The notes below the pieces were generated by a model. The model did not search any database. It worked only from the letters and a program-made list of their open reading frames with translations, and was not told the DNA's origin. Of a stretch of 64,000 nt of DNA, positions 30,240 through 32,849 are shown piece after piece (the stretch's first letter is position 1; each line of letters opens with the position of its first letter). Origin of the DNA: Luteimonas huabeiensis HB2 (GTDB lineage Bacteria; Pseudomonadota; Gammaproteobacteria; Xanthomonadales; Xanthomonadaceae); NCBI RefSeq assembly GCF_000559025.1, contig NZ_JAAN01000026.1, positions 124,001-188,000 of the forward strand. Reading direction: 5' to 3'. The translations under genes were made by a program, and so were the position numbers.

Positions 30240-30305
30240 CGCGCTAGGCTGCATCGACATTCAGCGCGCGAAAGGCCCGCTGTTGGAGGCGCGCTGTCTC
30301 TGGCC

Positions 30306-30513
30306 TGCCCCCGCAAGCGGGGAGCATCCTGTTTTTCCCTTCCCCCGCAAGCGGGGAGCATCCTGATTTCCCTTCCCCCGCAAGCGGGGGAAGGTGCCGA
30401 AGGCGGATGGGGGGCACGCCGCAGGCGTGCAAAATGAGCCCGCTCGCGGGAGAAGGGACGGCATGGGCCCGCTTGCGGGAGAAGGGACGGCATGGGCCCG
30501 CTTGCGAGAGAGG
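30306..30513 (+). repeat. Composite palindromic repeat array after psd
   Basis: The 288-base psd to DUF4870 gap holds two sub-arrays. First come three CCCCCGCAAGCGGGG hairpins at 30308, 30342 and 30375, spaced 34 and 33 bases. Then come three head-to-tail 29-bp units of ATGGGCCCGCTTGCGGGAGA-type sequence, starting at 30434, 30463 and 30492. The stem sequences belong to the same family as those in gspG and between rng and maf. No gene or clear promoter is seen elsewhere in the gap. Confidence 0.88.
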
Positions 30514-30527
30514 GAACGCGATACGCG

Positions 30528-30968
30528 CTAGCCGATCAGGCGGATGCTCAGCGGGTAGCGGTACGGCTCGCCGTTGAAGGCCTTGACCGCGGCGATCACG
30601 CTGAACACCAGCCACAGCAGCGCGATGATGCCGGCCGCCGCCAGCAGCGCCAGGCCCGCGGGCAGGGTCAGGATCGCGCCCAGGCCCAGGGTCAGCACCG
30701 TGGCCCCGACCAGGGCGACGCCGATCGCGCAGGCGACCAGCGCGTAGATCAGCATGCTGAGGTTGAAGTTGAGCGCCTCGCGGGCGTGCTCGGCGACGAA
30801 GGGCGAGTCGTCGCGCTTGAGCAGCCAGACGATGCCCGCACCGACCACTCCGGCGACGCCGGCCAGCCAGCTCGTGAGCAGGGCCAGCACCAGCGCGGCC
30901 AGGTGCGCCGCGGCGGCCCAGCTGCGCTCGCCGGACGTCGGGGCGTTGAAGGCTTCGGTACTCGACAT
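30528..30968 (-). CDS. DUF4870 (Tic20-like) membrane protein
   Basis: A 146-residue inner-membrane protein with four hydrophobic segments. It matches the DUF4870 pattern: AHLAALVLALLTSW..., then IVWLLKRDDSPFVAEHAREALNFNLS, then a Gly/Ala/Leu-rich hairpin, then VKAFNGEPYRYPLSIRLIG. Function is unknown. The ATG at 30968 has a GGAGAT site. It is the third gene of a small cluster after a second DUF4870 gene (32376-32801) and a secreted duplicated-domain protein. The two DUF4870 proteins share the KR..PFV..A.EALNFN core and the C-terminal YRYP.(S/A)IRL but differ elsewhere. Confidence 0.85.
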   Translation of the reverse strand: MSSTEAFNAPTSGERSWAAAAHLAALVLALLTSWLAGVAGVVGAGIVWLLKRDDSPFVAEHAREALNFNLSMLIYALVACAIGVALVGATVLTLGLGAILTLPAGLALLAAAGIIALLWLVFSVIAAVKAFNGEPYRYPLSIRLIG

Positions 30969-31062
30969 GGTCGTATCTCCGGCGGCGCGGACATCGCGCC
31001 TTGTCCGCATCATGGGTCCGCACGCAGCGCGGGCCAACCCAACCGATGGCACCCCGGCCGGG

Positions 31063-32376
31063 TCAGTCAGCGGCCTGCGCACCCCAGGGACGGGCGGCCG
31101 CGTCGCTGCCCGGCCAGCGGATCTGGTCGAGCTTCCAGCGCCCGGACGGAAGCGCCACCAGGGCCAGCGTCAGCTCGGGGGCGCCGGGCGTGCGCAGCAC
31201 GGCGGTGGCGTGGCGGCCGTCGATGCGGGCGGGTTCGGCGCGGGTGGCCGGCGACAGGGCGAAGGGCAGCGCGCCCAGCGCCGCGGCGCGCAGGAGCAAC
31301 GCGTCGAAGCGGAGGCCGAGGTCGGTGCCGTACTCGTTGAAGGGCGTGACGTCCGCTGCGACCTCGCCGTCGCTGCGCGGCGCCGCCAGCCACGGCAGCG
31401 TCCCGTCCAGTTCGCGCAGCCCCAGTCCGGGCGTCAGCGCCTCGAAGCGCAACCCCTCGATCGCGCCCGTCGCGCCCCACTCCGCATCCGGCGACAGCAG
31501 GTGGTGGACGCTCAGGTAGTCGCGCCGCGTCCAGGCCCGGACGAAGGCGCGCACGGTGGCGTCCGGCGACGACATGTCCAGCGCTTCGTAGAACGTCCGC
31601 AGCCGGCCGGCGTCCTCCGGCGGCGCGGGCGCCGCCTCCGCGCCGCGCGCCGGTCCGGCCGCGCCGTCCCAGGGGCGGGCGGTGTCGCCGCTGCCCGGCC
31701 AGCGGACCCGGTCCACCTTCCAGCGCCCGGAAGGCTGGCGCAGGATCGACAGCGTCAGCGTGTCCGCACCGGGCGTGTGCAGCGCGACGAGCGCCTGCGC
31801 GCCATCGGCCTGCCCTGCCTCGACCTGCGTCTGCGCGGTGATCGCGAAGGGCAGCTTGCCGCGCGCGGCCGCCTGCCGCAGCAGCGCGTCGAAGCGCCGG
31901 GTGGGATCGCCATCGAACTCGCCGTTGGGCGAAGCGCCGGCCAGCACCTCCTCGACGGTCTTGCCGGAGGTCCGGTAGAGCGGCGAGTCGCGCGCATCGG
32001 CCTCGTCGAAGCCGGGCACCAGCCGGTTCGGCTCGTAGCCTTCGATGGCGCGTGCGACGTCGTGCTCGCTCTGCGGCGACAGCAGCAGGTAGACCGTCAT
32101 GAAGTCCTGCGCCGCCCAGGCCTGCGCGAAGCGCCGCGCGCTCGCCTCCGCCGAGGACATGTCGAGCGACTCGTAGTAGGTCCGCGCCGCCGGTGCGGAC
32201 TCCTCGGCGGACGCGGGCGCGGCCAGGGCCGCGGCGACGAGAACGCAGGCCGCGGCGAACCGCGCCACGCCCGCAAGCGCGAAGACGCGGCGAGGCGGCA
32301 GGCGCCCGGGCGGGCGCCGCGGCCCCCCGTCGCGCCCCGGCATCGCGAGACGCGACGGCCTGCGGGCCCGGCGCAT
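31063..32376 (-). CDS. Secreted protein with two copies of an unrecognised domain
   Basis: I do not recognise this 437-residue protein. A basic N-terminus (about 35-45 residues) leads to a signal peptide ending LAAPASA. Two copies of a domain of about 170 residues follow. Each begins RT(Y/F)YE(S/L/A)LDMSS, has AW..(Q/R)D(F/Y)...V..LLSP and AIEG, then RFDALL.(Q/R)AA..G.LPFA(I/L). Each ends LPSGRWK(V/L)D..RWPGS..(T/A)ARPW. This is an internal duplication with a charged Pro/Ala linker. The opening resembles SnoaL/NTF2-like ligand-binding folds, a weak inference. The ATG at 32376 overlaps the upstream DUF4870 stop (TGATG); an ATG at 32343 is a reasonable alternative closer to the signal peptide. 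Confidence 0.75.
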   Translation of the reverse strand: MRRARRPSRLAMPGRDGGPRRPPGRLPPRRVFALAGVARFAAACVLVAAALAAPASAEESAPAARTYYESLDMSSAEASARRFAQAWAAQDFMTVYLLLSPQSEHDVARAIEGYEPNRLVPGFDEADARDSPLYRTSGKTVEEVLAGASPNGEFDGDPTRRFDALLRQAAARGKLPFAITAQTQVEAGQADGAQALVALHTPGADTLTLSILRQPSGRWKVDRVRWPGSGDTARPWDGAAGPARGAEAAPAPPEDAGRLRTFYEALDMSSPDATVRAFVRAWTRRDYLSVHHLLSPDAEWGATGAIEGLRFEALTPGLGLRELDGTLPWLAAPRSDGEVAADVTPFNEYGTDLGLRFDALLLRAAALGALPFALSPATRAEPARIDGRHATAVLRTPGAPELTLALVALPSGRWKLDQIRWPGSDAAARPWGAQAAD

Positions 32377-32801
32377 CACTTCACCAGGCGGATCGCGAAC
32401 GGATAGCGGTAGGCGATGCCGTCGTTGGCCTTGACCGCGGCGACGATGATGAACACCAGGGCCACCAGGCCGAGGATCGCCATCAGCGGGCCGACGAGCA
32501 GGAAGCCGATGCCCAGGGTCAGCACGCCGATCAGGAACAGCACGACCATGATCGCGGCGACGGTGATGTTGAAGTTCAGCGCTTCCTTCGCCTGGTCGTC
32601 GACGAACGGCATGGTCTCGCGCTTGAGCAACCAGATCAGCAGCGGGCCGAGCACGCAGCCGACGCTGGCGCCCCAGCCGGCGGTGAGCAGGCCGCCCAGC
32701 AGCGCCGACAGGTGGGCGAACATCGCCCACTGCCGCTGCTCGGCGCTGACGCCGTTCCTGTCGGCGGACACGGGGGGGGCGGGTTCGTAGGGCTCGGTCA
32801 T
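32376..32801 (-). CDS. DUF4870 (Tic20-like) membrane protein
   Basis: A 141-residue membrane protein with three to four hydrophobic helices. It carries MFAHLSALLGGLLT, IWLLKRETMPFVDDQAKEALNFNITV and the ending VKANDGIAYRYPFAIRLVK. This is a more canonical DUF4870 protein than its downstream relative. The ATG at 32801 has a GGAG site. Its stop shares a base with the next start (TGATG), tying it to the secreted duplicated-domain gene. Function is unknown; the conserved cluster suggests the three act together at the envelope. Confidence 0.88.
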   Translation of the reverse strand: MTEPYEPAPPVSADRNGVSAEQRQWAMFAHLSALLGGLLTAGWGASVGCVLGPLLIWLLKRETMPFVDDQAKEALNFNITVAAIMVVLFLIGVLTLGIGFLLVGPLMAILGLVALVFIIVAAVKANDGIAYRYPFAIRLVK

Positions 32802-32849
32802 CGCGCGTCTCCTGGGGTCGGCGCCGGACGGCGCCCGCGCCATCCTACG

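Follow-up and report, generated by a model that had tools for sequence, protein, structure and literature searches.

The tandem-domain gene and its neighbours

Between two DUF4870 genes of Luteimonas huabeiensis HB2 lies a minus-strand gene (31063–32376 of the window, by which we mean the whole 64-kb stretch of DNA analysed) whose translation stays open over 437 codons. It encodes a protein of 437 residues made of two copies of one domain, copy 1 at 31657–32205 (183 residues as modelled) and copy 2 at 31066–31623 (186 residues), both on the minus strand. The sequence-only reading of the window had proposed this internal duplication, and BLASTP confirms it: the two halves are identical at 77 of 172 residues (45%), with no gaps (E 1e-42). 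Moreover, their local alignment score is 386, against 69 for the best of 1000 shuffles, and the motifs quoted in that reading (RT[YF]YE.LDMSS, LLSP, AIEG, RFDALL and GRWK.D..RWPGS...ARPW) are all present in both halves. The GC content at the three codon positions of the tandem gene is 0.77/0.60/0.94, and since this resembles that of the adjoining genes, the frame is coding.

The upstream gene, DUF4870-A (32376–32843, minus strand), and the downstream gene, DUF4870-B (30528–30968, minus strand), match PF09685 with E values of 6.2e-33 and 1.3e-28, respectively, in agreement with the earlier claim of a DUF4870 gene on either side. DUF4870-B begins 94 nt downstream of the tandem gene. The TGATG overlap with the upstream gene was also correctly read: the tandem gene is annotated from an ATG whose A, at 32376, is shared with the stop codon of DUF4870-A, an overlap of one base. 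Alignment to the corresponding gene of genome G216 suggests that DUF4870-A itself likely starts at the ATG at 32801.

The N-terminal region of the tandem protein (32206–32376, minus strand), inspected by eye, comprises a basic stretch and a hydrophobic, signal-like segment, FAAACVLVAAALAAPASA, with the hydrophobic stretch ending in ...LAAPASA/EE; the protein is apparently exported, and its location is probably the periplasm. When translated from the first ATG, the hydrophobic segment is preceded by RRVFALAG. Because the first 36 codons are odd in composition (second-position GC of 0.78, against 0.59), translation may instead start at the GTG at codon 37 (32268), which would leave a short signal-like segment.

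Relatives of the domain and their history

The tandem gene is whole in only one of 52 genomes of the genus, its own, in a search in which every candidate was scored. The sole relative among the other 51 genomes, in G234, is a single truncated domain, 53–55% identical to half 1, that ends before the last strands; the missing end motif is absent from all three forward frames past the end of the domain. This copy is flanked by genes for an amylase-like protein and a short-chain dehydrogenase, and the relative (L005:1480-2133) runs into unrelated sequence opposite the dehydrogenase gene. It is likely to be a truncated remnant.

Wider searches returned little. With the whole protein as query, 198 sampled genomes of the family yielded the genome of origin and one spurious match. 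Nothing credible was added by a three-row profile in 395 sampled genomes of the family, by a four-row profile in 299 sampled genomes of the phylum or by a twelve-row profile in 299 sampled genomes of the order, and absence from these wide samples is limited to what was scored, in most genomes the best 8–13 first-look candidates. A scan of the contig collection with the whole protein gave no match, and the same scan with the three-row profile gave one distant relative, L057, from a metagenome-assembled genome (27% identity, E 3e-15). The order to which that genome belongs has matches in 10 of 138 genomes, the L057 genome included, with E < 1e-19 in nine. With the same limit on the candidates scored, 296 sampled genomes of the L057 phylum added nothing convincing, and six of 247 sampled genomes of its class match, one of them, G1264, being new. 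From gene content, we suspect that the group of the distant relatives is Actinomycetota. No match to the tandem family was found among viral contigs, plasmids and phages, nor did any of four members match PHROGs.

Two candidates were dropped, G175 (E 7e-4) for its two stops and low-complexity N-terminus, and G308 (E 8e-4) for lying antisense to a gene, which we take to be prfB. Short stretches in G575, G616 and G645 (E 5e-4 to 9e-4) and a match of 114 nt at a contig edge in G1116 (E 4e-4) were left uncounted.

Among the ten distant relatives, the seven with a complete N-terminus appear to be single-domain proteins; in G411 and G1112, the N-terminal side is cut off by the contig end. All eight of the distant relatives in which the N-terminus is present show a signal-like hydrophobic segment ending near a Cys, which by eye is lipobox-like in some of them. 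Judged by these sequences, the domain defines a family that is rare and unnamed and that mostly takes the form of a predicted single-domain, lipoprotein-like protein in a distant bacterial order.

G1264 (L087, minus strand) has a 379-residue stop-to-stop frame with a Cys after a hydrophobic segment. Its first half outscores the best shuffle against 11 of the 12 members, the exception being G1112 (50 versus 51). The second half does so against four of the 12 (G1067, 86 versus 47; G411, 63 versus 57; G1112, 61 versus 52; G234, 47 versus 46), and the two halves scored against each other give 35 versus a shuffle maximum of 53, which is not significant. G1264 is probably a diverged tandem of the same domain, with its second half weakly supported.

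In a tree built with IQ-TREE under a fixed model, half 1 pairs with the G234 copy as its sister and half 2 falls outside the pair, with only moderate support for the pairing (aLRT 78, bootstrap 83; 64.5/81 once G1264 is added). The duplication thus seems to be older than the split between half 1 and the G234 copy, and the latter may be the remnant of a tandem gene. Full support (100/100) unites both halves with the G234 copy to the exclusion of the distant relatives. G1264 groups with the distant relatives (99.7/100), so that its tandem arrangement would be a separate event.

Such a distribution, with a whole copy in a single genome of the genus and a truncated one in another, would also be expected of a recently arrived gene that has no settled role and is heading for loss. 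We regard this as unlikely, since the frame of 437 codons is intact and both halves keep the conserved columns described below. Also, half 1 and the G234 copy differ mostly at third codon positions (70 changes, versus 36 and 39 at first and second positions, over 146 codons); the contrast is weak between the two halves themselves (71 versus 52 and 68 over 172 codons).

The DUF4870 pair

DUF4870 proteins are also named HOTT and are related to Tic20; MamF-like members help to target membrane proteins in magnetosomes, and the family is described as otherwise uncharacterised (PMC11628618). DUF4870 matches occur in all 52 genomes of the genus, with two on one contig in 38. In 35 of these 38 the two Pfam matches are separated by 51–530 nt, the exceptions being the tandem-gene genome (1452 nt), G144 (2977 nt) and G070 (3026 nt). 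The order DUF4870–tandem gene–DUF4870 is found in one of the 38. In G144 (L037:1861-4490) and G070 (L038:2104-4759), a DUF1800 gene and, after it, a DUF1501 gene occupy the slot within the DUF4870 pair, and both DUF1501 proteins begin with the twin-arginine-like LSRRRFV.

Judged by its two DUF4870 genes (87.5% and 92% identity), the G216 locus comes nearest among 16 loci compared; it lacks a tandem gene between the two. BLASTN places the difference precisely: a segment of the window (31060–32375, minus strand), flanked by DNA of 91% and 90% identity on its two sides, replaces a 63-nt spacer of G216. DNA homology extends through the whole DUF4870-A stop codon, breaks off there and returns at 31059, four nucleotides beyond the stop codon of the tandem gene. 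The G216 spacer is predicted to fold into two hairpins.

These comparisons bear on the earlier suggestion that the three genes specify an envelope complex, in which the tandem protein would be a dedicated periplasmic partner or client of both DUF4870 membrane proteins in this lineage. The one-base stop/start overlap and the position of the gene between the pair are in keeping with such a role, as are the activity of MamF-type HOTT proteins in membrane-protein targeting in magnetosomes (PMC11628618) and the other genes that fill the same slot in two other genomes of the genus. However, the pair occurs without the tandem gene in 35 of the 38 genomes in which it is close, G216 included, and the tandem gene is whole in a single genome. 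Nor did relatives of the domain prove to adjoin DUF4870 genes: none was found in 11 loci of 3.6–19 kb that hold such relatives, with a genus-only profile that could miss a remote or distant DUF4870, and no conserved neighbourhood emerged, an outcome that the sequence-only reading had itself named as refuting its suggestion. The profile was made from 74 DUF4870 stretches of the genus and recovered both genes of the tandem-gene genome. The three-gene complex is thus unsupported, and we consider a dedicated partnership decidedly improbable; stop/start coupling in one genome alone is not evidence of a complex. On this evidence, the DUF4870 pair is the conserved element, and the tandem gene lodges within it in one lineage.

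Several other features of these loci were recorded. TCGGTTGGG, mostly within CCATCGGTTGGGT, occurs at 31046 (minus strand), just upstream of DUF4870-B. Of 17 sources (the window and L037–L052), 10 have it upstream of their B-type DUF4870 gene; it is nearly repeated in L039, L041 and L049, and the window has one exact copy. Downstream of DUF4870-B, at 30300–30520, units of CCCGCAAGCGGGG / CCCGCTTGCGGG are repeated, as seen by eye. Among nine loci of the distant relatives, four (G411, G1054, G1045 and G1112) have a Sigma70_r4_2 match no more than about 2.6 kb from the domain, against a background of 243 matches in 26.2 Mb; the loci with a nearby ECF sigma factor gene (L073, L079, L080 and L081) differ in arrangement. 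A link to ECF sigma factors was set aside, because the arrangement varies and because, among the matches listed, none is near the G1058 and G1050 copies, which are 85% and 83% identical to that of G1054.

The probable fold and a proposed function

The sequence-only reading could not place the domain and suggested an NTF2/SnoaL-like fold. Profile searches gave matches to NTF2-like families below the curated cut-offs and no Pfam or NCBIfam match above them, for either the tandem protein or its family. The closest Pfam match is MecA_N (E 3e-4 for the whole protein, over 32 residues); SnoaL_2 matches with E 0.023 and, for copy 2, with E 0.065. Unrelated families also match weakly (secreted_MTB12, E 0.0032; LuxT_C, E 0.0096; TiaS_FLD, E 0.054–0.17). 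A search of solved structures with the tandem protein found no relative, the single match (E 0.031) being judged due to chance, and a 12-member profile found nothing significant among PDB sequences (best E 0.47).

The AlphaFold model of half 1, built from only four sequences, has a pLDDT of 79.8 and a pTM of 0.81 and shows helices followed by four strands. Its structural neighbours according to VIA-align are YbjP (best row; Z 8.6, 120 residues, rmsd 3.4), Tai3 (second-best row; Z 8.3, 102 residues, rmsd 2.6), the S1C-NTF2 bi-domain of RsgI9 (Z 8.1, 95 residues, rmsd 3.3), a ketosteroid isomerase (KSI)-like protein (Z 7.8) and PBP2a (Z 7.7, 100 residues, rmsd 3.2), where best Z values of 7–8 are common without relationship. 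A Z of 8 is reached by five of 999 chains. Penicillin-binding proteins take up 37 of the best 50 rows, one domain family many times over, and these rows therefore amount to few independent witnesses. Foldseek returned nothing at E ≤ 0.001 for the same model in the PDB or BFVD; its top PDB row (E 0.027), a kinase/phosphatase, is unrelated. The full-length model (pLDDT 52, pTM 0.36) is too poor to judge domain packing, and half 2 appears in it as helices followed by strands; we assign the NTF2-like fold to half 2 by its homology to half 1. Taken together, the sub-threshold profile matches, the half 1 model and its neighbours support an NTF2-like fold as the best fit. We are quite confident of this prediction, and the domain can be placed in that fold moderately securely.

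A 12-row alignment shows conservation in 11 or more rows at ten columns. Nine of these are invariant wherever the residue is present (E12, L14, D15, A29, D34, V38, F105, W162 and W179), and A112 has one exception. The start of the domain approximates to RT[FY]YESLD[LM].SP across the family, with the variants VN, RN, YFETLD and FYEALD. Because the acidic residues E12, D15 (11 of the 11 members having the position) and D34 (12 of 12) are never substituted, an exported enzyme of the SnoaL/ketosteroid isomerase kind is conceivable, and the weak SnoaL_2 match and the KSI-like rows among the structural neighbours would agree with it. Yet hydrophobic or aromatic residues fill seven of the ten conserved columns, and secreted NTF2-like domains such as DUF3828 are taken to be non-catalytic (PMC3924330), so that we hold a catalytic role to be highly doubtful. 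An immunity protein like Tai3, protecting against a peptidoglycan-attacking toxin delivered by neighbours, would suit the rank of Tai3 among the structural neighbours, as well as the patchy distribution and the spacer replacement, both of which fit a transferred gene; but it seems very improbable, given that the Z of Tai3 is close to those of other NTF2-like rows, that YbjP, ranked above Tai3, shares the Pfam domain of Tai3 yet plays a different role (PMC13082787), that no effector gene was seen by eye beside the tandem gene, and that DUF3828 is missing from the profile matches listed for both halves, G234 and G411 (E ≤ 10) and for the 12 members (E ≤ 1).

Comparison with known systems places the tandem protein near several of them. 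Like the DUF3828 proteins YbjP, Tai3 and YqhG, the first two of which are the best structural neighbours of half 1, it would be an exported or lipid-anchored NTF2-like protein; unlike them, it has two full copies and conserved columns of its own, and identity is 11–15%. MecA_N, the NTF2-like N-terminal domain of penicillin-binding proteins, is closest by profile, although the tandem protein is duplicated and lacks a transpeptidase domain. DUF4878 and DUF3887 share a solo secreted or lipid-anchored architecture and a proposed role in ligand binding (PMC3924330), yet neither is among the Pfam matches listed for the tandem family. The MlaC/Ttg2D phospholipid carriers are periplasmic and have an NTF2-like domain, whereas MlaC carries an extra helical domain (PMC8035174), and the matches to them are not significant (PF05494, E 0.26 in one of the 12 members; 4fcz, E 0.68).

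On balance, we lean slightly towards an exported, probably periplasmic, tandem NTF2-like protein that acts as a non-catalytic binder of a ligand or partner, with its two copies packed as a built-in dimer. Duplication of one domain would have given a protein with two NTF2-like domains, each with helices followed by a four-stranded sheet of the kind that usually forms a pocket in the NTF2-like superfamily. Separate NTF2-like chains often pack as dimers, and the fused copies may mimic such a dimer. In one crystal dimer of secreted NTF2-like domains, the cavities are joined into a groove (PMC3924330). The same source describes DUF3828, DUF3887 and DUF4878 as secreted or lipid-anchored NTF2-like domains that are probably non-catalytic ligand binders, and it is by analogy with these that we propose binding of a small ligand, a lipid or a partner protein in the envelope, a step that we hold, taken alone, with less confidence than the statement as a whole. 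The gene would probably be expressed by way of its coupling to DUF4870-A, to which it would have no dedicated link.

A far more speculative idea, to which we give very little weight, is that the gap in the DUF4870 pair serves as an insertion slot for genes whose exported products are handled by the pair. Examples would be the tandem protein, with the RRVFALAG of its first-ATG reading, and the DUF1800/DUF1501 pairs of two other species of the genus, with the twin-arginine-like start of their DUF1501 proteins. The HOTT proteins would then act as a device for export or membrane targeting whose clients can be exchanged, the tandem NTF2 protein being a covalent-dimer client. If true, this would open a way to learn what the little-studied HOTT family does.

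In any event, a fold can now be proposed for a domain so far unplaced; most likely, the domain represents an unnamed and rare branch of a kind already known. Its relatives outline a family of exported NTF2-like proteins that is rare, crosses bacterial groups and can be recognised by its conserved columns, and whose tandem form is clear in Luteimonas huabeiensis HB2 and suspected once in the distant group.
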